This document shows, one piece after another, positions 3 to 24,519 of a DNA stretch of 32,311 nucleotides. The stretch lies in assembly GCA_020850475.1 (NCBI GenBank), contig JADZEO010000079.1, forward strand, positions 1 through 32,311, written 5' to 3'. The notes beneath the pieces were generated by a model that saw only the letters and a list, made by a program, of their open reading frames with translations, made no database searches and was not told the DNA's origin. The stretch comes from Bdellovibrionales bacterium (GTDB taxonomy: Bacteria; Bdellovibrionota; Bdellovibrionia; Bdellovibrionales; UBA1609). A program made the translations under genes and the position numbers. Position 1 is the first letter of the stretch. Every line of letters begins with the position of its first letter.

Positions 3-1031
3 AATTCTCTCTATGATGTCATGGCGGCTAGTTCAATTGCGAATCGCTTTACTCTAATCGAGCACCACCGGTCTGCCGATGCCATTATCAATTTCTCAAA
101 TCGGCAATTCTACGGAGGAGATCTCGTTATTGCAACTCGCCAACGGAACCTCAAGAGGAGGACGGATACTCCCACCATCGACTGGGTTGATGTCGCTGGG
201 CAAGTAACCTCGCCAGGAGGCTCCGGTGCTCTCAATCAGGCAGAAGTCGAAGCCGTAGTAACATACCTTAAAGATCTTCTCGTAGAACGAGCGTATGACG
301 GTACTGTTGGTGTCGTGACCCCTTTTCGTAAGCATGCTAATCGAATTCGCGACGCGGTTGAACGTGACAGTGATCTACGCAATGTAATGAGTCGGTCCAA
401 CCTGTTGGTCGACACTGTTCATCGCTTCCAAGGAGATGAACGGGACATAATTATTTTTTCTCCGGTAATTTCACTTAATATTAGCCTGAGTGGCTTAAAC
501 TTTCTTAAGTCTCAGGGAAATCTCTTCAATGTAGCGATCACTCGAGCGAGAGCCCATTTGGTGGTTATTGGCGACATCGACTTCTGCCGAAAGTCGGGAG
601 TTAAGTACTTATCGTCCTTTGTTAGCTACTATGAGGAGCTGGAGAGGGCGCGGCCCCTAGCGTTGCTTGACCCGGCGACGCTCACAGATGCCCATCCGTT
701 TGCGACTGATCCTCGAGTATCACACTGGGAAGTAGTATTCTACAAGGCTTTACGAGAGGCGGGCCTGCAGCCGATTCCTCAATACGGCGTGGACAAATAC
801 GCACTTGATTTTGCTGTCTTCCGAAAGGATGGCGCAAAGCTTGATATTGAGGTTGACGGCGAATTGTATCATAAGACTTGGACGGGCCAAACAGTGAGGG
901 CAGATACAATCCGTAACCAGTCTCTAATTGAGCTAGGGTGGCAGGTCAAAAGATTTTGGGTGTATCGCCTCAACGAAGACCTATCGTCCTGCGTTCGCGA
1001 AATTGTAAAATGGGCGTCCGCTGGAAAATAG
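3..1031 (+). CDS. Superfamily 1 DNA/RNA helicase with C-terminal Vsr-like nuclease domain, 5'-truncated by window edge
   Basis: The reading frame is open to the left edge, so this is the C-terminal part of a larger protein. The ATG at 21 is probably internal, because the residues before it (SLYDV) continue a typical DNA2/NAM7-like helicase sequence. Numbering from that ATG, VDTVHRFQGDERDIII (about 130-145) and FNVAITRARAHLVVIGD (about 170-186) match late helicase motifs of UPF1/Dna2-like enzymes. The last 90 or so residues (LDFAVF, IEVDGELYH, a conserved RN and a GW before the C-terminus) look like the DUF559/MTES_1575 Vsr-like PD-(D/E)XK fold; this fusion is known in bacterial accessory helicases. 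It would act on nucleic acid in the cytoplasm, with the specific target unknown. It converges on the lipoprotein gene at 1092. Family confidence is high; a defence role is inference. Confidence 0.85.
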   Translation, partial: NSLYDVMAASSIANRFTLIEHHRSADAIINFSNRQFYGGDLVIATRQRNLKRRTDTPTIDWVDVAGQVTSPGGSGALNQAEVEAVVTYLKDLLVERAYDGTVGVVTPFRKHANRIRDAVERDSDLRNVMSRSNLLVDTVHRFQGDERDIIIFSPVISLNISLSGLNFLKSQGNLFNVAITRARAHLVVIGDIDFCRKSGVKYLSSFVSYYEELERARPLALLDPATLTDAHPFATDPRVSHWEVVFYKALREAGLQPIPQYGVDKYALDFAVFRKDGAKLDIEVDGELYHKTWTGQTVRADTIRNQSLIELGWQVKRFWVYRLNEDLSSCVREIVKWASAGK

Positions 1032-3034: not shown

Positions 3035-4777
3035 ATGGCTGTCATGTCCCCCATAGAGTTTCCTTCTCCTCCGGACGATCCAGAATTCGGGCCCGCCCAA
3101 CGGGCTGGCTTTGAGGCAGAGAGATTGGTTTATCGAATGCTCTCAAAGCTGGACGATCCCTGGTTTGTCGTTTGGAGTCACCGGACAAGAAATAGCGAAA
3201 TCGATTTTATCTGCCTTAATCCTGATTTTCCAATTATCTTACTAGAGGTAAAGAGCGGAAGATTTGAAATTCGAGAAGGGTGCCTTTACCAACTAACTGG
3301 TGTCGAAGGCAGAAAGCTTATTAACCCTATAGTTGACTTGAAGAGACGTAGGGATCAGCTAATCGACGAGTTCAGGGCTAGTCTTGACCTGGAGTTAAAG
3401 GAATTTGACTTCGAAGTCGCACTGGTGGTGCCAGTAACCCAGAGCTTTTCCGGAACCATCCTCGAAGATCTTAAGGATCGGGTTTTCTTCTCAGGGGATC
3501 TCGTCAGCCGCGATAAGTTAATGATGCGAATAAGAGCGCTGCCTTGCAAAAATTCAATTGGCAAGGAACGGTTCAGTAAAATTAAGGCTCATTTGGGCCG
3601 GGTCGTTTCAAGTGCGCCGGGGAATGTCCTAAGAGTAATTGTCGACGATGTTGCGCGCGAGCTGGAGAGGGTGGCTAACCGGGTCACTGAAGATCCTCTC
3701 GAAATGGTTCTTGAAAATCGTGAAGTCTTGATTAAAGGCGGTGCTGGTGCGGGCAAGACCTACCTCTTGATTGAACTCGCGAAACGACTTGCGGGAAATG
3801 GCGACAAGGTTTTGGTAACCTGTTACAATGATTTGCTAGAGAAGCAGCTTCAGCAGCAACTCAGTGACTATCGTTCCCATGTTACAGTTGCAAACTTCCA
3901 CAATCTAGTGATTGAACAGATCTTACACGCAACGGGCAAAGCGGATAAGAGTGAGATCTTCCGCGGATGGGAGCAGAGCTTTCCAAACGAAGAAAAGCGA
4001 CACTACTTCGAAGATTATTTGCCTGGGAAGTTACTCGAAGTAAACACTGAGCCTGGCTATAATCCAACGAAGTTTGAGGCGATCTTAATAGATGAAATTC
4101 AGGACTTCCAAGACGGTTGGTTGGATAGTGTTGAAGCGCTTCTGACGACCGAAGGAACTCGGACCCACTTAGTTGGGTGTGTTGATTTTGCGCAAAATCT
4201 GCGATCGTCTAGGGAGAGAGTTGAAGAGCGGCGGCGGTGGGCAATGTTGCCAATGCGGAAGAATTTTCGCAACTCTAAGAAAATTGCTGAGTACGTCAAG
4301 AGCGAGTTTCAAAAAATACCTGATGAAGTACGTCAAGGAATGCCAGCCTGCGAGCCCTTAGCGGGATGCCCCGAGGGGCGAGACGTCGAGTTTATTGAAT
4401 GCACCTCAAATGGTCTAATGAAGAATTTGGAGGGTGTTCTCGAGCGGGTTGTGATCCAGGAGAAAATTCCAGTCGCATCCATCGCGATCTTGTCGTTTCG
4501 GTCAAAGGATGACCTGAACAGCCCGGCCCTCGCTGGGCACAATGTCTTTTGGGGCAAGAAGGTTGGCCGTTTTATCCTTCGCGAAAAGGCGGGTGGCAAG
4601 GAAGAACCTTACGCCATTCAATTGGAGACTGCAAAGCGTTTTAAGGGTTGCGAACAATCCGTGGTTATCGCGTTGATCGACAAGAGGTTATCGGAGCGCG
4701 ATGCTGCACTTAAGTATGTAACCTTTAGCAGGGCCAGGGAACATTTGATCGTGATTGCGGTCAAGGATTGCGGTTGA
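3035..4777 (+). CDS. NERD nuclease-domain / superfamily 1-like helicase fusion
   Basis: 580 residues. Residues 20-130 form a NERD (nuclease-related) domain with a likely PD-(D/E)XK site: E29 in GFEAER, D57 in SEIDF, then E71 and K73 in LLEVKSG. A P-loop ATPase follows with Walker A GGAGAGKT (about 235-242), Walker B ILIDEIQD (about 350-357), an FRNS motif (about 410), and the late UvrD-like motifs KRFKGCEQSVVI and VTFSRAREHLIVI near the end. NERD-helicase fusions are a known bacterial architecture, often in mobile or accessory islands, with an inferred role in nucleic-acid degradation. The ATG at 3035 has an AGGA nine bases upstream; the Met at residue 4 is an alternative. It is the first gene after a 91-base gap and overlaps the ribosome binding region of the NIF3 gene. 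No signal peptide is present. Confidence 0.88.
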   Translation: MAVMSPIEFPSPPDDPEFGPAQRAGFEAERLVYRMLSKLDDPWFVVWSHRTRNSEIDFICLNPDFPIILLEVKSGRFEIREGCLYQLTGVEGRKLINPIVDLKRRRDQLIDEFRASLDLELKEFDFEVALVVPVTQSFSGTILEDLKDRVFFSGDLVSRDKLMMRIRALPCKNSIGKERFSKIKAHLGRVVSSAPGNVLRVIVDDVARELERVANRVTEDPLEMVLENREVLIKGGAGAGKTYLLIELAKRLAGNGDKVLVTCYNDLLEKQLQQQLSDYRSHVTVANFHNLVIEQILHATGKADKSEIFRGWEQSFPNEEKRHYFEDYLPGKLLEVNTEPGYNPTKFEAILIDEIQDFQDGWLDSVEALLTTEGTRTHLVGCVDFAQNLRSSRERVEERRRWAMLPMRKNFRNSKKIAEYVKSEFQKIPDEVRQGMPACEPLAGCPEGRDVEFIECTSNGLMKNLEGVLERVVIQEKIPVASIAILSFRSKDDLNSPALAGHNVFWGKKVGRFILREKAGGKEEPYAIQLETAKRFKGCEQSVVIALIDKRLSERDAALKYVTFSRAREHLIVIAVKDCG

Positions 4778-8038: not shown

Positions 8039-8626
8039 ATGTTAAAGCCTTCGGCCCAACTGTTAATCATTGGAAACTACCCAGGAGCCGACGAGGTAGC
8101 AGCCAAAGAACCATTCATTGGACCAGCGGGGAAAAATCTCTTTCTGTTGTTGAGTATTCTTAGGAACGACTGGGTAAAAGTAGAAAACCACCCTTTTTTT
8201 GAAGGGCAGTCGGCGCTAGGGCCTGGGTTTTGGCAGAGCGTGTTCGAATCCAAGATAGCAATATTTAATTGGCATAAAGGTCGCGAAGTTACAAAAGTGA
8301 ATAAAAAGAACGAAAGTGTGACTAAGATTGATCAGGGTGACCCGGTGCTTGGCAAAGATTTCAAAGGGATCGCTACATTTCGGGAACGGATCCTTCCAAC
8401 CGAAAAACACGAGATACCAATTCTTGTTTTGGGTAAGGCGCCGCGCGAGGCCTTGTTTGGCAAGAAAGCAGAGTTCGGAGACCTGACTCACGATGGGAAG
8501 ACATTCAGTTGGTACCATCCGGATCCACGCAATGGTGAAAACGGGCGATTCTGGGGCAATCCATCGGAAAAGAAGGGTAAGAAAGATAAGTTTAAACAAT
8601 TGGTAAAGTTCTTAAGGTCGATATAG
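8039..8626 (+). CDS. Uracil-DNA glycosylase superfamily-like protein with altered motifs
   Basis: 195 residues. LLIIGNYPGADEVAAKEPFI continuing to GPAGKNL (residues 8-34) has the layout of motif 1 of family 4 uracil-DNA glycosylases (GEAPG..E...G.PFVG.AG..L), but the GEAPG is GNYPG, so the usual Glu position is Asn. IPILVLGKAPREALFG (about 125-140) fits the strand before the second motif, and SWYHPDPRNG (about 162-171) supplies the expected His-Pro. The C-terminus is Lys-rich. The family excises bases from DNA; altered motif residues suggest a different base or loss of catalysis. The ATG at 8039 has GGAGG only 24 bases upstream, so the start is not well supported. The 357-residue gene starts 34 bases after the stop, so the two are likely cotranscribed. 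Confidence 0.6.
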   Translation: MLKPSAQLLIIGNYPGADEVAAKEPFIGPAGKNLFLLLSILRNDWVKVENHPFFEGQSALGPGFWQSVFESKIAIFNWHKGREVTKVNKKNESVTKIDQGDPVLGKDFKGIATFRERILPTEKHEIPILVLGKAPREALFGKKAEFGDLTHDGKTFSWYHPDPRNGENGRFWGNPSEKKGKKDKFKQLVKFLRSI

Positions 8627-8660
8627 TTGTTCTTTTTAAAAGAAGGGCCGAAACGAGTTC

Positions 8661-9734
8661 ATGCCAACATATACATTTAAATCCTACTTTGAAGAGGTTG
8701 TTGAACCCAATTTAGTCAACCCAGAAGTTTGTCGGGTTGTTCTTAAGGAAATGGATGAAATAGTCCAACAGCGTATTCCACTTGCGATCCGAAAGTTTGC
8801 TCCCGCCAAAGATAGTGAACTCAATACCCGACTGCGCGGCAATCTCGGCGAGTGGAATGGCTTCCCCTTTGTTTGTTGCGACAACGAAGCTTCCTTCTGG
8901 CTGTATGAGCTGTGTAAGGAAGGCTATGATAAAGGATGTCTTACCAAAAGCATTCAGGAAAGAGCCATACCAGTTGCGAGGAAATCTATTGCTGGTGAGC
9001 TTAGAGACTTCAGTCAGACCACCTTCAGCCTAAGGCTTACCTTTCCGGCTCAGGAAGCTGGATGGAAGTTGGCCCATTTATTTCGGGCGAGTCCGAGCGG
9101 GACTACATTTACCACTCTTTCTCCTAGCGCCAGATTTTATCGGAATCTCTGCCCTATGAACTTTTACCTGTCGCCAAAACCGAAACGGAATGATTTCCGA
9201 TGGGTTGATTTTGAGGGCAAGTGTAGGGGAGATGAATTTGCGGAAGCTGATGAGTTCAATAGCTACATAATTTTCAAAGTTGGCGCCTACTATAGTACGC
9301 TATGGGAGGAATTTGTGAAGCGGGTCGGCGTTGATGTCGACAGTTTTCTGGTCAAGCTGTCTCAGCGATTTAATCAAGATAGTGAACTAGAAACTAAGCT
9401 TTGGATTGAGTTTGGAGAGGTTAAAACCGCCAACAAGGTTAACCCTATAAATGGCGTTGGGCATGCTGGAGCTGTCCAGCGAACGGCGACTCGGTTTTGG
9501 GTTAAGCAGGTGGACTATGATGAACTTGTTGCCAGTCCTACGAAGCAATTGGTCATTACGGTGCAAGGAGGGAAAGGCAAAAAAGTCCATCCGTCGGGCG
9601 TGTATGTGATACCAAATAATATTGCAAGACAATTTATTAGAGGGAAGATGGACGACCTTAACTGGCAAAAACATCTAGATTTTAAGCAAGCGAGTATCCC
9701 AACTGAATTGAGGGAATATTTTCACCGCAGATAG
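8661..9734 (+). CDS. Protein of unknown family, 357 residues, paired with the glycosylase-like gene
   Basis: I do not recognise this protein. It has no signal peptide or membrane segment. The N-terminal third is helical and charged. The middle has AGWKLAHLFRASPSGTT and later RFYRNLCPMNFYLSPKP (about 134-178). This His...Asn layout (KLAH...NFYL.PKP) is reminiscent of degenerate HNH/beta-beta-alpha-metal nucleases; that is speculative. The C-terminal part has beta-rich sequence (QLVITVQGGKGKKVHPSGVY). The start at 8661 has a weak upstream purine stretch (GGGCCGAAACGAG). It is immediately downstream of the glycosylase-like gene in the same direction and converges with the gene at 9766. The pair is the window's best candidate for an uncharacterised DNA-targeting system. 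Confidence 0.65.
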   Translation: MPTYTFKSYFEEVVEPNLVNPEVCRVVLKEMDEIVQQRIPLAIRKFAPAKDSELNTRLRGNLGEWNGFPFVCCDNEASFWLYELCKEGYDKGCLTKSIQERAIPVARKSIAGELRDFSQTTFSLRLTFPAQEAGWKLAHLFRASPSGTTFTTLSPSARFYRNLCPMNFYLSPKPKRNDFRWVDFEGKCRGDEFAEADEFNSYIIFKVGAYYSTLWEEFVKRVGVDVDSFLVKLSQRFNQDSELETKLWIEFGEVKTANKVNPINGVGHAGAVQRTATRFWVKQVDYDELVASPTKQLVITVQGGKGKKVHPSGVYVIPNNIARQFIRGKMDDLNWQKHLDFKQASIPTELREYFHRR

Positions 9735-11877: not shown

Positions 11878-11913
11878 CTAGAGTCCCGTTTTGATTCTGT
11901 GTGCGATCCCGCG
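11806..11913 (-). repeat. Duplicated gene-end module, copy B
   Basis: This aligns with 6022-6128. Shared blocks include TTTCTCCT, GACGTTCG-C/T-CGACAAAACT, and TTTGATTCTGTG followed by CGA-C/T-CCCGCG. On the minus strand it covers the AHRIK-containing end of the 85-residue gene (11878-12135), its stop, the spacer and an AGGAGAAA sequence. The two genes it terminates do not otherwise look alike. Confidence 0.75.
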
Positions 11914-12135
11914 CATAATCATTGAAACAAAAGAAATTTGATCGGGGCTCAATGCATCGTGGACACCTTTGACGCTTTCTAACGGCATCAATATGCCGGC
12001 TAACATTCCTCGATAAAACTCTTCAGACTGATTTACACAATACTTATCAATGATGCCATCAATGATTCGATATGATTGTTCATCATATTGACTGGCTAAT
12101 TCATCAATGTATTTATTCATCTCAAGGTTATTCAC
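11878..12135 (-). CDS. Small hypothetical protein, 85 residues, coupled to the ADP-ribosylglycohydrolase gene
   Basis: The start is a GTG at 12135 with AAGGAG six bases upstream; an in-frame ATG lies five codons later. The start overlaps the end of the upstream glycohydrolase gene by eight bases, so translation is probably coupled. The protein is helical, with an acidic N-terminal half (YIDELASQYDEQSYRIIDGI) and no membrane segment. Its end (MRGIAHRIKTGL) lies in the duplicated module and matches the tail of the 212-residue protein at 6090. It could be a regulator or partner of the glycohydrolase, but only position supports this. Confidence 0.65.
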   Translation of the reverse strand: MNNLEMNKYIDELASQYDEQSYRIIDGIIDKYCVNQSEEFYRGMLAGILMPLESVKGVHDALSPDQISFVSMIMRGIAHRIKTGL

Positions 12136-16518: not shown

Positions 16519-16773
16519 AAGCCTAAAAAGCCATTAAAGACCTCACCTGGTGAGCGCATCCGCACAGTCAATGATTTGGGCGTGCAAATCAGAGCAGAAC
16601 GGCGCAAACGAAATTTCAGCCAAGCCGAACTCGCGGCGCGTGCTGGTGTTAGTCGGCGTTTCATTTACCAGTTGGAAAATGGGTCGCGAGACTCCTTTCC
16701 TCTGGGAAAGGTCTTGCAAGTCATCCGACGACTTAATCTTGAGATTCAAATTATTCACAGGGTCGTCGAGTAG
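16510..16773 (+). CDS. hipB: HipB-type antitoxin and repressor
   Basis: About 87 residues. The ATG at 16510 is chosen because family-like sequence (MDQKPKKP, then a HTH) begins there; no clear Shine-Dalgarno precedes it, and the start lies in an operator-like dyad. The HTH spans about residues 30-80: GVQIRAERRKRNFSQAELAA, RAGVSRRFIYQLENG, a classic XRE fold. It would bind the HipA toxin and repress the hipBA promoter through the two dyads. The stop is one base before the hipA ATG, the usual antitoxin-toxin order. The basic N-terminal leader of about 20 residues is slightly longer than in E. coli HipB. Confidence 0.88.
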   Translation: MDQKPKKPLKTSPGERIRTVNDLGVQIRAERRKRNFSQAELAARAGVSRRFIYQLENGSRDSFPLGKVLQVIRRLNLEIQIIHRVVE

Positions 16774-16774
16774 T

Positions 16775-18031
16775 ATGCGGCGATTATGGGTCTGGTTTCC
16801 ACCCTATCTTATCGGCACCATCGACGATACTGAGGACGGGCTGAGCTTTCGGTACTCAGAGGAATGGTTGAATTGGGATAGTGCCTTTGGGCTTTCGGCA
16901 TCTCTAAAAAGAGATTCGAAGGTGTACAAAACGGAAGCGGAAAATTTTTTTGGTAACTTACTCCCAGAGGGGCATGCCCGAGCAACACTGTGTCGCAAAC
17001 TGGGCATTTCGATCGACAATGACTTTGAGCTGCTTTTGCGAATTGGACAAGAGTGTGCGGGAGCACTCGTTTTGTCCGATCAAGACACGCCGCCTGAGGA
17101 CAAGGGCGGCATGGAAGAAATTCCGATAGACGATTTGGCGAAGTGGCTTAAAGGAGATTCCGCCGGGATTATAGATCTTCAAGTGAAAGGGAAGTTGAGA
17201 TTGTCATTGGCTGGCGCACAAAATAAACTTCCGCTCATTTTTAAGGACCACAAATTCTTTAAGCCCGTAGGCTCCCAGCCAACGACCCATATTTTGAAAC
17301 CACCGCCAAAGAGCTTTGGGAATCTTCCACAAAATGAATGGCTCCATGGCAAGATCTATGCGGCGATGGGCCTTCCGACGGCAAATTCACAGCTCATCCA
17401 AATCGGAAAAAAGCTGGTATTACTCGTGGAACGCTATGATCGGGTATACGAAAATGGCCGATGGAAGAGGCTCCATCAAGAGGACTTCTGCCAAGCTCTA
17501 GCAGTTTCCTATAAGAAGAAATATGAAAATGAAGGTGGCCCAACGTTGTTAAGTTGCTGCAAGACAATTGAAGATCGATCAGATGATGTAGCGAGCGATA
17601 TTGATTCGTTATTGAAGTGGCAGATCTTAAATGTCTTAACCGGTAACTGTGACGGGCACGGGAAAAATCTCTCCTTGCTAAGGCACTCCGATGGAACGTG
17701 GGGCCTCGCGCCCTTTTATGATTTGGTAAATACCAGATTTTATACCGATCTCACGCACAATTTGGCAATGTCAGTGGGCGATCAGTTCGACTCGGGGACT
17801 GTACTGCCAAATCACTGGAAAAAACTTTTCACCAGTGCGAAGGTCAGCCCGAGTGCTTACTTAGCAGCGGCCCGTCAGATGGCAGAAACATTGCCATCGG
17901 TACTCAATGACTCGATTGAACAGTTCAAAGCACAATATGGGAATGCTAAGTTTTTGGGTGACTTAATGCAAGCTCACCTAAAAATAATCAAACGCAATCT
18001 GAAGCTCCTTAAGGATTCCTCCAAGCGCTAA
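16775..18031 (+). CDS. hipA: HipA-type serine/threonine kinase toxin
   Basis: 418 residues from the ATG at 16775, one base after hipB; upstream in-frame sequence belongs to another frame of hipB. The N-terminal part (LWVWFPPYLIGTIDD, ENFFGNLLPEG) and the catalytic part are typical. LSLAGAQNKLPL (143-154) includes the regulatory Ser144, HILKPPP (172-178) the ATP-binding Lys, VERYDR (218-223) the central motif, and NCDGHGKN (291-298) the catalytic Asp293 and Asn298. PFYDLVN has the Mg-binding Asp316. Known HipA kinases phosphorylate glutamyl-tRNA synthetase and arrest growth; a similar role is likely. All catalytic residues are present, so it is probably functional. Length is close to the 440 of E. 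coli HipA. Confidence 0.92.
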   Translation: MRRLWVWFPPYLIGTIDDTEDGLSFRYSEEWLNWDSAFGLSASLKRDSKVYKTEAENFFGNLLPEGHARATLCRKLGISIDNDFELLLRIGQECAGALVLSDQDTPPEDKGGMEEIPIDDLAKWLKGDSAGIIDLQVKGKLRLSLAGAQNKLPLIFKDHKFFKPVGSQPTTHILKPPPKSFGNLPQNEWLHGKIYAAMGLPTANSQLIQIGKKLVLLVERYDRVYENGRWKRLHQEDFCQALAVSYKKKYENEGGPTLLSCCKTIEDRSDDVASDIDSLLKWQILNVLTGNCDGHGKNLSLLRHSDGTWGLAPFYDLVNTRFYTDLTHNLAMSVGDQFDSGTVLPNHWKKLFTSAKVSPSAYLAAARQMAETLPSVLNDSIEQFKAQYGNAKFLGDLMQAHLKIIKRNLKLLKDSSKR

Positions 18032-18265: not shown

Positions 18266-18338
18266 GTTGTCTCATTAGCGAACAATGTCCTTGGCTGTCC
18301 AGGCACAGCGCAAAACTTAAATCATAGGAGGTACTTTT

Positions 18339-19046
18339 ATGAACAAGTGGTTTTGGTGGTTAATGGTGGTAGTAGCTTTAGCAGCCTGTGAAACGGCGGG
18401 GCCAAGGCGAGTCGTGGTCGATCAATCGGGCAACGGCGGTCCGCCCGAGTGGGTGCATAGTTCTCGATCCAACTGGGAGGATGGCACGACCGTGATGTAC
18501 CGTGGGACTTCGACACTGTGGGGAGACGAGCGGCTGGATGGCTGTTATCAGCTCGCCAAGCTCAATGCCAAAGAGGCTCTGCTGAGCGAAATTTCCGAAG
18601 AGGTCAAGGGTGCAGTGGACCACGCGACTCAGGGTTTGTCTGAAGAAGCCGAGAATGTGCTCAATCTCTCGCGCAGTACCAAGTACCAGGGCAACCTGAG
18701 TGGGCTGCGCTTTACCGAGGAATACTACGAGCGCTACGTGATTAAGGATGACGAAAGGATCGAGTGCTTTGTGTTGGGTGCCATCAAGCGCTCCGACTAC
18801 AACAAAGTTCGTCGTCGCGTTTTGACCGGTGTTGCGGCCGTCGATTCACGCGTGCGCGAGGCCATGATGAAGAGGCAGATTCAGTTTTTTGACGAGGGCG
18901 AAGAGCAAACCGTCGTCGGCGCACCAGCGAGACCGGCTGCATTGCCGGCCAAGCGTGGGCCGGCCAATGCCGAAGGCGGTGCCACCGCGGCAGTTACTCG
19001 CGAGCCGGCAGTTCTTGAGAGCGCTGACCAACAGGAAGCGCAATGA
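18339..19046 (+). CDS. LPP20-like lipoprotein, 235 residues
   Basis: AGGAGG precedes the ATG. The signal peptide ends in a lipobox LAAC with Cys17. The following PEWVHSSR and a helix of the form A.LNAKEALLSEISEEVKG are typical of the LPP20/FlgP-like lipoprotein fold, which forms periplasmic or outer-membrane assemblies. The last 40 residues are low complexity (Ala, Pro, Gly) and probably disordered. The stop overlaps the start of the next gene (ATGA), and that gene also begins with an LPP20-like domain, so the products likely interact at the outer membrane. The exact LPP20 assignment is from pattern, not from an alignment. Confidence 0.7.
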   Translation: MNKWFWWLMVVVALAACETAGPRRVVVDQSGNGGPPEWVHSSRSNWEDGTTVMYRGTSTLWGDERLDGCYQLAKLNAKEALLSEISEEVKGAVDHATQGLSEEAENVLNLSRSTKYQGNLSGLRFTEEYYERYVIKDDERIECFVLGAIKRSDYNKVRRRVLTGVAAVDSRVREAMMKRQIQFFDEGEEQTVVGAPARPAALPAKRGPANAEGGATAAVTREPAVLESADQQEAQ

Positions 19047-20767
19047 GCCACAGTCAGTATTTGACCCTGATCTTGGCTTTGCTTCTCGCGGCGGTGGTCG
19101 CAGGACCTCAGTCCGCCTGGGGTAGCGAAGATGAGGCACCCGCCTGGGCGCGGGTGCCTCCCGCTGCGGACATCATGTACAAATACTATGTGGGAGTCGG
19201 TTGGGACCATCAGAGCCAAGCGACGGCGCAAGAGCTCGCCATTCGCGATGCCCAAGAGTCGGCCATTCGCGAAAACTTTGGAGTTGTCACCAAAATTGAC
19301 GTCGACAACTACCGAACGCTGAAAGAGACGAGCTTTAATCAACGCCTGAGTGAGGCCTCCTCACCGATTCAACTCCTCGAATTTGAGCGTCGCCAAGTGA
19401 GTGTGGCACAAAGCCGTCGCGGCGGCTTCGTGGTGTGGGTGTTGTTTCGTTACCCGCTTAAGGAGATCGAGCGCGAGAAAATACGTCTCGAGGGGGCCCA
19501 ACCACCGCCCGGCGGTATCGGTGTGCGCACCGGCTCTGCCAGACTGAAACATAATACTTTGCTGGTCGTAACGTCCGTGCCCGAGGGAATTGAGATTTAC
19601 ATTGATGAAGTCCGCTGGGGAGTGACGCCGCTGACATTGAAAGGGGTCTTGCCTGCGGGGAAGCATCGATTGTGGCTCACTGATCCTGAGTTTGAAGATG
19701 CGCGCAGCGAGGTTAACTTGGTGGAGCACGATTCGCGTGAGGTACACCATGTGCTCAAGTCGGCGCAAGGTGAGTTGACTGTTACGAGCAATTTGAATTC
19801 AGCCAAGATTTACGTGGACGGAAAATTAAAAGGTAAGGCCAGCGTCGGCCCCTTGCGCTTAGACGCCGGTCGACCCCACGTGGTTTTGGTTGAGCACAAA
19901 GATGCTGAGTCACAAAGTCAGGAGATCACTTTGGCCAAAGGCGAGATCCGCTACTGGAGAGCGGAGTTGCGCAAGCGCATGGCCTTTGTGCGCGCCACCG
20001 CCGGTCAGGATTTGACCATGGTCTATGTTAACCGGAATTTTCGCAGCTACATTGAGCGCAAACCGACTCAGTTTGAAGTGGAGCCAGACGAGGAGATTGA
20101 ACTGCGAATTGAAGCAATCAACCACCGACCGACGTTTAAGTCGCTGCGCTTGCGACCAGGGCAAGTTTACGACTTAGGGCACATCGAACTCGAGCGTCAG
20201 CCCGAGGAGAACCCGAGTTACGCGCGGTCGGTCGGCAGTAGCAGCGATTCAGACTCCTCGTGGTCGAGTTCGTCACAGCTGTGGCCGGATGCCGAGTGGT
20301 ACCAGAAGAGCGTGGTCTTTAGTTTTTTTGTTTCCTACAACGATCGCTCTTTGGATGCGGATTGGGCCGCCAACTCCTTTGGCTTCGGCTTTTTTCTCGA
20401 ACAAAGATTCTTGTATCGTTTGGGACTGCGTGGGGGGTTCGAGATAATCTCGGGTGACGACCCTGATTTGGAATACGAAATGAGGGGCGAAAACTGGTCA
20501 CTAGGGATTCCACTCTACTTAGAGGATTCCGCATCATCGTACTACATCATTTATGAAATCGGTGGGACTCGACAGGACTACGATAAAGACAGCATTACCG
20601 TCGCTGAAGTGTCACAGCGTCGAGCAGGTCTTGGGATCGGGGTGATTGGAGTACCAAATGGTGGCAATTTGAGTCTGACGGCCTATCGCTATGACATGGG
20701 TGCCTGGGGCAGTCACAATGGGCTGTCGTTGCAAGTGGGTTTTACCATAGGCTCCGGGGAGAGGTGA
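19043..20767 (+). CDS. Exported LPP20-like/PEGA-domain protein with a C-terminal beta-rich, possibly barrel domain
   Basis: 574 residues, start ATGA-coupled to the lipoprotein. A signal peptide ends near SAWGS (about residue 28). Residues 30-150 repeat the PAWARVPP..Y.VGVG....AQELAIRDAQESA pattern of the LPP20 group. Residues 170-320 contain two PEGA-like modules (EGIEIYIDEVRWGVTPLTLK, then SNLNSAKIYVDGKLKGKASV), which bind cell-envelope polymers or proteins. A Ser-rich linker follows (about 395-415), then about 150 residues of alternating aromatic beta-strands (SFFVSYNDRSLDA, YLEDSASSYYIIYEIG, final VGFTIGSGER) that look like an outer-membrane beta-barrel. Predicted location: outer membrane with a periplasmic PEGA region. 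The next gene begins three bases after its stop. Confidence 0.72.
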   Translation: MSHSQYLTLILALLLAAVVAGPQSAWGSEDEAPAWARVPPAADIMYKYYVGVGWDHQSQATAQELAIRDAQESAIRENFGVVTKIDVDNYRTLKETSFNQRLSEASSPIQLLEFERRQVSVAQSRRGGFVVWVLFRYPLKEIEREKIRLEGAQPPPGGIGVRTGSARLKHNTLLVVTSVPEGIEIYIDEVRWGVTPLTLKGVLPAGKHRLWLTDPEFEDARSEVNLVEHDSREVHHVLKSAQGELTVTSNLNSAKIYVDGKLKGKASVGPLRLDAGRPHVVLVEHKDAESQSQEITLAKGEIRYWRAELRKRMAFVRATAGQDLTMVYVNRNFRSYIERKPTQFEVEPDEEIELRIEAINHRPTFKSLRLRPGQVYDLGHIELERQPEENPSYARSVGSSSDSDSSWSSSSQLWPDAEWYQKSVVFSFFVSYNDRSLDADWAANSFGFGFFLEQRFLYRLGLRGGFEIISGDDPDLEYEMRGENWSLGIPLYLEDSASSYYIIYEIGGTRQDYDKDSITVAEVSQRRAGLGIGVIGVPNGGNLSLTAYRYDMGAWGSHNGLSLQVGFTIGSGER

Positions 20768-21742: not shown

Positions 21743-22888
21743 ATGAGCGGTGCAGCAACACCTAAGAAAGGCGGGGCAATTATTACGTCTGACGTCGCAA
21801 TACTAAAGACGAGCGCCAAAAAAGTCGATGAAGACTCAACGAGGGAGTTATCCGTGTCGGAGCGCAACGAACAAGTCGCCAGGATATTTCGGGTTTTGAA
21901 TTTTCTGGAAAACACTCGAACTGGCCTTTCCGTCAAGGAGTTGCACGCGCGCCTCGAAAACCTCGACATAGTGGTTCAAGAGCGCACGGTTCGTCGCGAT
22001 GTCGAGGCTCTGGAAAGAGCCGGGTTTCTATTGTTCGCCGACGAGGGCAACAAAGACGAGTCCGGGGGTCAGCGCTTTAAGCTAAATTCTCAACAAAAGG
22101 TCGATAATTATTTGGTGCTTAATCCTCGCGAACTCCTGGCGCTCTATTTGGTGCGTGGAGTTTTAAAGCCTCTGAGTCAGTCGCCGTTTTACCAGGATCT
22201 CGAGGCCTTTTTTAAACGCATCGAGGCCTTTCTTGGCGACAAGCAAGTGGACTATCTAGACGAGTTGGCGGGCGAGATTCACTTTGAACCTGGACCGCGC
22301 TGGGGCCTCGGTGGAGTGTCGGTCGATGTGATGGATACTCTGCGCTCGGGCTGCACCGAACGACAAATTGTCGAGGTCGAGTATTCTAGTGCTCATCGCG
22401 GCGGCGAACGAAGTTATCGACGTCTGGGTCCGATGTTTCTTTATTTTAAGCAGGGTGCCCTTTACTTCGTTGCCAAGGACCTGGGTGATGGCAAGGTAAA
22501 GACCTTTGCCGTGCCGCGGATTTCGCAGGCCACAATGACCGATGAGCCCTATGACGGCGAGGTGGTCGATCCCGAAGAGCACTTCCGAGATGCCTTTGGA
22601 ATTTTTAGGGGCGATGCGGGCCCAGAGAAAGTGGAGATTGAGTTCTCAGCCGTCGTCGGCCCTTATGTACGCGAGCGCGGCTGGCATCGCAGTCAAGAAT
22701 TCGTAACCAAGTCCGACGGAAAAGTTTTAATGAAACTCGAGGTCTCGGTAAACCCCGAACTCGTGCAATGGGTTCTCGGGTTTGGTCCCGATGCGCGGGT
22801 GCTGTCACCTAAGGCATTGGTCGACCAAGTCGTGGCTCGCAGCCGCGCGCTCATCGAAGAATACGAAAAGCTCAGACGCGCAAGCTAG
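21743..22888 (+). CDS. WYL-domain transcriptional regulator
   Basis: 381 residues with AGGAGG before the ATG. Residues 1-32 are a polar leader. A winged HTH occupies about 35-95 (VARIFRVLNFLENTRTGLSV, QERTVRRDVEALERAGFLL). A WYL domain follows at about 205-275 (RQIVEVEYSSAHRGGERSYR, PMFLYFKQGALYFVAKD), where the WYL triplet is replaced by LYF as in many Bdellovibrio-type members. The C-terminal WCX-like extension is present (VRERGWHRSQEF, ending VVARSRALIEEYEKLR). Such regulators respond to small ligands or single-stranded nucleic acid and often control DNA-damage or defence genes. Its targets may be the HNH gene downstream or the envelope genes upstream; no operator was found. Confidence 0.85.
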   Translation: MSGAATPKKGGAIITSDVAILKTSAKKVDEDSTRELSVSERNEQVARIFRVLNFLENTRTGLSVKELHARLENLDIVVQERTVRRDVEALERAGFLLFADEGNKDESGGQRFKLNSQQKVDNYLVLNPRELLALYLVRGVLKPLSQSPFYQDLEAFFKRIEAFLGDKQVDYLDELAGEIHFEPGPRWGLGGVSVDVMDTLRSGCTERQIVEVEYSSAHRGGERSYRRLGPMFLYFKQGALYFVAKDLGDGKVKTFAVPRISQATMTDEPYDGEVVDPEEHFRDAFGIFRGDAGPEKVEIEFSAVVGPYVRERGWHRSQEFVTKSDGKVLMKLEVSVNPELVQWVLGFGPDARVLSPKALVDQVVARSRALIEEYEKLRRAS

Positions 22889-23093: not shown

Positions 23094-23179
23094 TTGACAC
23101 AAATTTTGGTCTCTTTAGATGCGCTCTGCTTGGTTAGATTTTTGGATTTCATTTTTTTTTGCATTCTTCCGCAGGAAGA
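23094..23179 (+). promoter_or_regulatory. Candidate promoter and dyad upstream of the HNH gene
   Basis: TTGACA at 23094-23099 is a consensus -35; a weak -10 (TAGATG) lies 16 bases later. Further down, TCTTCC-GCA-GGAAGA (23165-23179) is a perfect dyad in the leader, about 160 bases before the ATG. The -10 is poor, so this is only tentative. Confidence 0.35.
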
Positions 23180-23337
23180 TGACCGGCGCGCCTTATAAGT
23201 CGTTGTGTGGGCAATTAATCTGGCGGTCGGCGGGACAACCAAATGTCTGCAGAAAAACCTGTGATATAGAAATGCGCAGGTCAGGAAAACTAATCTCACT
23301 GATTGATTTTGTGTCACGCATCTTAGGAGGAAAACGT

Positions 23338-24519
23338 ATGACAGGTCTGCCAAGTGATTCTCTCGCTCAATTGAATTCGTCGTCGTTGATTCCGCTTAGG
23401 TTGCAAAAGATCCACCAGGAAGCACTTGCAGCGACGTCGCGCTATCGAGCGGCGGAAATTGATTTGATCAATATTCTTGAGGCGGTCGAAAAGCACCGCG
23501 TTTTTTTACATTATGGATTCAATTCGGTGTTTCAATATGCGGTGCAGGGTTTGGGGCTGTCGGAGAACGTCGCCTACACGTTTATCAATGTCGCTCGCAA
23601 AGCCCGCGAGGTCCCGGCGCTCAAGGAAGAAATCAAACTGGGAAACCTAAGTGTTTCAAAGGCGAGAAAGATCACTTCAGTTTTGACTCAGGAAAACAAG
23701 GATCACTGGATTGCCCTGGCCAAAACCTCGAGCCAAGCGGTGGTCGAGCGCGAGGTGGCAAAGGTGAATCCCCTCGAAGCGGCGCGGGGTCGGGCGAACT
23801 ATGTTCATCCACTCAACGAAATCAAAGAGAAGGTCGTGATACCCAGGACTGCGCCTCGCGAGTCGAATCAGGCTCCAGCGCCCGCGCGCGTTCAACTGCA
23901 GGTGGGAATTTCTGAGAAGCTCATCATTAAATTGCGCCGCGCTCAAGACTTGGTCAGCCAGAAGTCCCGCAAGGGCGCCACTCTTGAAGATACCCTGGAA
24001 GCCCTAATTGGTGAGTTCTTAGAGAAGCATGATCCAGTCGAGAAGGCCAAACGGCAACTGGTGCGCGGAAAGTTGAGTGCCACGGCAGACGAAGTGGCTT
24101 CGGGCGGGCACAAACGCGCAGCCGGAAGGCACACCGCCGGGAGACAGGAGAAACAAATGGTGAAAGGGTGCGAAGGTGAGGAGCGCGAAGGTGATAGGCG
24201 CGAAGGTGATAGGCGCGAAGAGCGGGTTGGCAATTGCAAAACAAAGGGCCGAGGGGGGGACGAACAATTCTTGCGACAAGTTTTCGAAGAGGGCGCGTCA
24301 AAGCGCAAACCAATCTGCGCTAAGGAGAGGCACCGCTTGATGTTGAAGTTCGCGGGCCGCTGCAGTCATGTCGATCAAAATGGAAATAGGTGTCCGTCCA
24401 CCAGATTTTTGGAGATTCACCATGTTAAGCCGCTTCGCTTAGGTGGAAGTGACGACTTGGAGAATTTGACCCTACTCTGTGCTGGCCACCACCGAGGTCG
24501 ACATTTGGACGGTCGCTAA
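23338..24519 (+). CDS. HNH endonuclease, Bdellovibrio repeated-family type
   Basis: 393 residues from the ATG at 23338, which has AGGAGG; upstream in-frame codons lack support. Residues 10-150 are the helical N-terminal region seen in this family (VEKHRVFLHYGFNSVFQYAV, KAREVPALKEEIKLGNLSVS). After a disordered, repeat-coded Arg/Glu/Gly-rich linker (about 270-320), the C-terminus is an HNH nuclease: CSHVDQNGNRC, FLEIHHVKPLRLGGSDDLEN, LCAGHHRGRH. The catalytic HH, N and H are present, and the Cys pair with the later region may bind zinc. Such genes occur in several copies in Bdellovibrio genomes and may be selfish or DNA-processing elements. A second copy is at the right end of the window. Confidence 0.88.
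   Translation: MTGLPSDSLAQLNSSSLIPLRLQKIHQEALAATSRYRAAEIDLINILEAVEKHRVFLHYGFNSVFQYAVQGLGLSENVAYTFINVARKAREVPALKEEIKLGNLSVSKARKITSVLTQENKDHWIALAKTSSQAVVEREVAKVNPLEAARGRANYVHPLNEIKEKVVIPRTAPRESNQAPAPARVQLQVGISEKLIIKLRRAQDLVSQKSRKGATLEDTLEALIGEFLEKHDPVEKAKRQLVRGKLSATADEVASGGHKRAAGRHTAGRQEKQMVKGCEGEEREGDRREGDRREERVGNCKTKGRGGDEQFLRQVFEEGASKRKPICAKERHRLMLKFAGRCSHVDQNGNRCPSTRFLEIHHVKPLRLGGSDDLENLTLLCAGHHRGRHLDGR
24175..24232 (+). repeat. In-gene minisatellite in the HNH linker
   Basis: GGCGCGAAGGTGATA-type 15-base units are repeated about three to four times, encoding EGD-RREGDRRE. Unit length is a multiple of three, so copy number changes would keep the frame. The same GCGCGA core appears in the non-coding repeats after the gene. 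Confidence 0.6.

Follow-up and report, generated by a model that had tools for sequence, protein, structure and literature searches.

Uracil-DNA glycosylase (UDG) superfamily proteins repurposed for phage defence, Brig1, Brig2 and Brig3, are a recent discovery, and the pairing of such glycosylases with partner proteins is barely known. A relative of Brig1 adjoins a predicted ADP-ribosylglycohydrolase gene (PMC11078745), and in the Brig3 system the genes for the glycosylase and BapA are followed by that of a predicted ADP-ribosylglycohydrolase, which was dispensable for the defence tested (PMC13160076).

The catalytic residues of two other groups of the superfamily have been described. In the family 4 enzyme Tth UDGa, E47, F54, N80 and H155 have pocket or catalytic roles. 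The H155S replacement in family 4 lowers activity by more than three orders of magnitude and single changes of E41, Asn included, strongly lower it, while the double change E41Q-G42D regains most of the activity (PMC5387724). In UdgX, mutants of E52 (Q, N and A) indicated that this residue is required to activate H109, and H109S/E52N was impaired relative to H109S (PMC10359453).

The two genes and their surroundings

The stretch of DNA analysed here, the window, has 32,311 nucleotides and is contig 79 of a 3.9-Mb genome (G000). An earlier reading made from the letters alone, the sequence-only reading, had proposed a pair of open reading frames 34 bases apart, and both were found. Gene 1 (8039-8626, + strand) encodes a protein of 195 residues and gene 2 (8661-9734, + strand) a protein of 357 residues; the intervening gap is 34 bases. 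The G+C content of the two genes, 0.45, was slightly lower than the 0.48-0.53 of most of the surrounding stretch, which fits, as weak evidence, a joint arrival. No relative of either flanking gene tested was found among the 46 genomes of the family, so the region is a mosaic in which insertion into an empty site is not demonstrable.

The two helicase-nuclease fusions noticed in the same stretch by the sequence-only reading were real. The one at 3-1031 (+), cut by the contig edge, had domain matches to AAA_12 and, as a C-terminal nuclease domain, REase_MTES_1575, and its best PADLOC matches were Mokosh MkoC/MkoA. The other, identified by domain match as a NERD nuclease-helicase (3035-4777, +), had RTasNERD-Hel and C3a187 as its best PADLOC matches (E about 1e-26), and its 3' end was overlapped by a NIF3/DUF34 gene. 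The window also carried a HipA-like kinase (16550-18031, +), a WYL regulator (21743-22888, +) and a protein with a C-terminal HNH domain (23119-24519, +). A lipoprotein-like gene and a PEGA-domain gene (18321-20764, +) were common to the locus of a protein 2 homologue in genome G353 (L066 11088-13437, -; E 7e-54 and 3e-42), possibly marking a common insertion hotspot, and were weakly common also to L009.

The sole ADP-ribosylglycohydrolase gene of the genome (12128-13126, - strand; PF03747, 238 bits) lay 2.4 kb downstream of gene 2 on the opposite strand and is a possible third component of the locus. The chance of a given gene lying so close to a single-copy gene was about 0.002, a rough figure obtained post hoc. 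An ORF of 85 residues (11878-12135, -) overlapped the end of this gene on the same strand.

Protein 1 and the UDG superfamily

Sequence and model together place protein 1 (8039..8626, +) in the UDG superfamily as a divergent member with a predicted UDG fold, nearest to family 4 and UdgX. It scored 30.6 bits against the Pfam UDG family PF03167 (cut-off 24.3, E 4e-7), and a profile built from 16 other UDGs, with protein 1 left out, recovered it at E 3e-11. The NCBIfam UdgX model was its top match, below the cut-off, and the NCBIfam family-4 model TIGR00758 gave 20.3 bits, also below its cut-off of 125.3. The AlphaFold (AF2) model was of moderate confidence (pLDDT 62, pTM 0.62), residues 45-70 and 80-113 being mostly below pLDDT 50, and is not independent of the sequence evidence because UDGs were present in its input alignment. 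Its best Foldseek matches were UdgX (6ail, E 1.2e-5), and comparison with Thermus UDGa of family 4 and with MUG of the MUG/TDG group gave Z 9.5 in each case (141 residues, rmsd 4.1 and 138 residues, rmsd 4.0, respectively). The UDG-like fold anticipated by the sequence-only reading was thus borne out by both kinds of evidence.

The GNYPG and His-Pro motifs that had been read in protein 1 were both present. Motif 1 occupied residues 12-16 (8072..8086, +), with N13-Y14 in place of the usual E-A/G/Q doublet (alignments A2, A6 and A7). Among 45 fetched viral UDG-superfamily ORFs, the second position of the motif was E in 37, Q in five, and L, I and D in one each; none had N there, nor Y at the third position. 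A second GNYPG protein was found in none of the sequence sets searched.

Several other positions were kept. In alignment A7, the counterparts of E47 and F54 in the pocket of Tth UDGa were E19 and the PF at residues 25-26 (8093..8116, +; F26 being the match of F54), N77 (8267..8269, +) fell in an invariant column with the uracil-binding Asn, N80, and H160-P161 of motif 2 (HPD, residues 160-162; 8516..8521, +), invariant in both A2 and A7, aligned with the catalytic H155-P. The Thermus row of A7 served to supply the published numbering and was used in no other result; the pocket columns were also shown by a fetched family-4 row (L010). The sequence-only reading had placed too much weight on the altered motif 1, as the dominant catalytic residue of family 4 is the motif-2 His, which protein 1 retains. 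Since E41Q-G42D regains activity, the N-Y doublet might, by analogy, represent two changes that compensate each other and not a loss. A tight uracil pocket is suggested by the retained E19, and such a pocket would argue against bulky modified bases as the substrate, a difference from Brig1.

There was no cysteine among the 195 residues, so that protein 1 is unable to bind an Fe-S cluster as family 4 enzymes and UdgX do. In the UdgX alignment, E52 corresponded to N13 and H109 roughly to N88. The segment FNWHKGREVTKVNKK of protein 1 aligned with the R-loop region of UdgX, the stretch opposite KRRIH being VTKVNKK, and KRRIH was not matched. The correspondence of H109 and N88 is uncertain because pLDDT is below 50 in the part of the model that contains the R-loop alignment.

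Gene 1 is an addition to the glycosylase complement of its genome, which carries an ordinary family-1 Ung (GQDPYH, HPSPLSAHR) elsewhere, on contig 89. The search of 369 genomes of the phylum yielded no close homologue of protein 1; three weak matches were rejected as normal GEGPG family-4 enzymes that were alike only around motif 1. Searches of plasmids, phages and IMG/VR gave no confirmed relatives of protein 1 or protein 2. When IMG/VR was searched with the window UDG aligned to three UdgX proteins, 45 loci were returned. All were rejected as relatives, being ordinary family-4-type UDGs of phages in which the match lay chiefly at motif 1; protein 2 was absent near the viral UDGs at 45 of the 45. 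Many UDGs on viral contigs (L076, L078-L081, L085, L088-L095 and others) formed the N-terminal part of ORFs of 720-1150 residues, which would agree with fusions of a UDG to a DNA polymerase, as in PDB 9qhs (phiLo polymerase).

Protein 2 and its family

Protein 2 (8661..9734, +) is the first member to be described of a new family, one that recurs in the neighbourhood of defence genes. The sequence-only reading had recognised no family for it, and indeed none was found in Pfam, PADLOC or PHROGs; the NCBIfam match was at chance level and no PDB sequence matched significantly. In the 369 genomes of the phylum there were eight homologues, distributed sporadically over seven genomes. A profile of these eight, constructed without the window protein, matched protein 2 at E 1.2e-31, although the homologues were remote (16-22% identity). 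IMG/VR scans with three of the homologues found no relatives. The sole match in a scan of genome contigs, from Tatumella, was dismissed as a 21-residue chance match within MiaA, and a relationship to BapA and other ASCH proteins was rejected as the Pfam search gave no ASCH match.

Three residues were invariant in all nine family sequences (alignment A5), H139 in GWKLAHL, at the end of a predicted strand (9075..9077, +), and N167 and P172 in PMNFYLSP, around a predicted strand (9159..9176, +); the His and the Asn were among the most conserved residues. Most of the nine sequences followed the pattern G[WF]KxxH[IL] ... RxxRxxxPxNxFxxP. In the model of protein 2, H139 ends one strand and N167 directly precedes the next, with a helix between them. 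A His that ends a strand, followed by an Asn before the next strand, is the order seen in HNH nucleases, and it was in this His...Asn pattern that the sequence-only reading had suspected a degenerate HNH core. However, no Pfam HNH family matched protein 2 or the homologues tested, no conserved His or Asn that could be a third metal ligand occurred downstream of N167 in the nine aligned sequences, and the model, the C-terminal third of which was below pLDDT 50, had no matching fold in the PDB or BFVD. No nuclease or hydrolase fold was identified. The HNH reading is therefore unsupported, which leaves protein 2 as a possible nuclease.

The homologues occurred in varied contexts. In G223, the gene lay between drmD (1025 bits) and an HTH/DUF1232 gene, and drmMI followed drmD, which identifies a DISARM locus. 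In G353, just 3 bases separated it from an ADP-ribosylglycohydrolase gene downstream on the same strand, and genes for a REase_II-like protein and an AAA ATPase were a few kb off. The G197 homologue was near a kinase gene and a GmrSD_C-type HNH gene, the latter appearing to bear a signal peptide, while in G139 there were two homologues, separated by 8 kb, with a WYL regulator in the vicinity. No defence gene was recognised among the ORFs listed for the G039, G247 and G248 loci. A relative of the C-terminal domain of protein 2 adjoined a GmrSD gene on Synechocystis pSYSA. Two side observations concern these neighbours. The C-terminus of the kinase beside the G197 homologue (L008 458-1675, -) resembled, by eye, the C-terminal domain of the homologue, hinting at a shared mobile domain. 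Convergent with the pSYSA relative was SGL_RS00735 (L064 8423-9010, -), a hypothetical protein whose start carries a GLNPG motif, which was rejected as a UDG on an unsupportive profile comparison and the lack of a Pfam match.

The association with ADP-ribosylglycohydrolase genes was uneven. G353 had two such genes, one of them abutting the homologue, and the window and G353 enzymes were only distantly alike; G223, G139 and G197 had none anywhere in the genome. A sensitive UDG profile detected no UDG at any of the eight homologue loci, several of which were on contigs that end within a few kb. The conserved co-occurrence of the two genes that the sequence-only reading had named as a check was thus not found, which weakens the pair on that reading's own terms. 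Nevertheless, the homologues are remote (16-22%) and several contigs are short, so the missing UDG is not decisive for close relatives.

Explanations of the pair and comparison with known systems

The best single explanation, which we hold tentatively and at somewhat less than an even chance, is a two-gene accessory cassette for a Brig-like base-excision defence; we infer the glycosylase activity, the substrate, the joint action and the defence role of the pair. Protein 1 would have lost the Fe-S cluster and exchanged the motif-1 doublet, E-A/G/Q, for N-Y. As the pyrimidine pocket and the catalytic His are kept, it most likely still excises: uracil, or a pyrimidine like it, would be flipped out of incoming DNA and removed, so that abasic sites are left behind. 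The most likely role of protein 2 would be a joint one with protein 1 on this DNA, by cleavage at the abasic sites or close to them, or, like that of BapA for Brig3, by preparation of the base.

In favour of the cassette are the Pfam, profile and model evidence for a UDG with its pocket and catalytic residues kept, the presence of gene 1 in addition to the family-1 Ung and its absence from relatives, the shared strand, 34-base gap and slightly low G+C, and the DISARM, ADP-ribosylglycohydrolase/restriction-like and GmrSD_C-type HNH contexts of the homologues. There is also the precedent of Brig1 (PMC11078745) and Brig3-BapA (PMC13160076), UDG-superfamily defence glycosylases beside an ADP-ribosylglycohydrolase gene. 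Against it are the 0/8 homologue loci with a UDG, the lack of protein 2 near the 45 viral UDGs, the three loci (G039, G247 and G248) without a recognised defence gene, the impaired activity after single E41 changes in family 4 (PMC5387724) and E52N in UdgX (PMC10359453), the kept E19, a sign of a tight uracil pocket, which sets protein 1 apart from the known defence glycosylases for hypermodified bases, and the want of a nuclease or hydrolase fold in protein 2. Of the interpretation first offered for this locus, the UDG-like fold was supported, the HNH nuclease was not, the conserved co-occurrence was not found (0/8 loci), and the defence link gained circumstantial support, short of proof, from the homologue contexts and the published Brig systems.

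Three other explanations were weighed. The two genes may be coincidental neighbours. In this case gene 1 would encode an orphan accessory glycosylase, and gene 2, a single-gene defence system or mobile gene in its own right, would have arrived downstream of it. The sporadic homologues without a UDG at eight of eight loci and the mosaic nature of a region whose flanking genes lack relatives in the 46 family genomes speak for coincidence, whereas the 34-base same-strand spacing and common composition speak against it and close relatives of such remote homologues could yet be paired; on balance we consider it unlikely. An accessory host repair pair would act on the DNA of the cell itself, with protein 1 taking out uracil or some other damaged base and protein 2 assisting in the processing of the site; it would account for the kept uracil-pocket residues and catalytic His. 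A family-1 Ung is already present, however, both genes are missing from nearly all relatives, unlike core repair genes, and in at least two genomes the homologues have defence-like surroundings, all of which makes host repair very unlikely. Similarly improbable is a UdgX-like reader without excision activity, which would bind to uracil or to abasic DNA and bring in protein 2. It would agree with the UdgX proteins as best Foldseek matches and with Asn at both positions of the E52-H109 dyad (N13 and, roughly, N88), given the impairment of UdgX by E52 mutations and of H109S/E52N relative to H109S (PMC10359453), but H160 is kept and the N88 match is uncertain, falling in the R-loop stretch with pLDDT under 50.

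Returning to the cassette, a stronger form of the proposal, which we regard as doubtful, is a new base-excision immunity system of two proteins, perhaps three with the ADP-ribosylglycohydrolase, in which a UDG with N-Y and no Fe-S cluster works with the founder of a new effector or accessory family that recurs in the defence islands of the phylum. If true, a UDG with a uracil pocket but neither cluster nor motif-1 acid, together with a new family found by DISARM and restriction-like genes, would widen the class of UDG-superfamily proteins repurposed for phage defence. The pair is a small, concrete experimental target, two genes in about 1.7 kb, and the protein 2 family is new, recurs near defence genes and can be tested irrespective of the pair.

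Among known proteins, the HNH (bba-Me) nucleases share with protein 2 the order of a His that ends a strand and an Asn that immediately precedes the following one, but protein 2 has a helix between the two, no conserved third His or Asn and no Pfam or fold match. Family 4 UDGs (UDGa; PDB 1ui0/1ui1, 4zbx) resemble protein 1 in fold, in the PFxGPAGK stretch that follows motif 1, in the E, F and N of the pocket and in the catalytic His-Pro. They differ in having four Cys for a 4Fe-4S cluster, where protein 1 has none, and GE(A/G)PG rather than GNYPG; protein 1 also has a 25-residue insertion following the first helix and a shortened N-terminus. UdgX (M. smegmatis; PDB 6ail) provided the best Foldseek matches and the top, below-cut-off NCBIfam model and shares an F-x-W region past the third motif, but has GEQPG, with E52 replaced by Asn in protein 1, and possesses the cysteines and the KRRIH loop that protein 1 lacks. 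Membership of the UdgX group would also imply a covalent bond to abasic DNA.

The Brig systems were compared by description only. Brig1 is, like gene 1, an accessory gene of the UDG superfamily with defence genes and an ADP-ribosylglycohydrolase in its vicinity, but its product removes alpha-glucosyl-hmC (PMC11078745), whereas protein 1 keeps a family-4-like pocket. The Brig3-BapA operon likewise has a UDG-superfamily gene and, after it, one of unknown type, and an ADP-ribosylglycohydrolase lies close by (PMC13160076). BapA was modelled as an ASCH protein (PMC13160076), while protein 2 has no ASCH match and another predicted topology, and the third gene of the window is 2.4 kb off on the other strand. 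Judged by the window genes and the homologue contexts, gene 1 is a UDG-superfamily gene in an accessory, defence-like region, as are the glycosylases of the Brig1 and Brig3 type.
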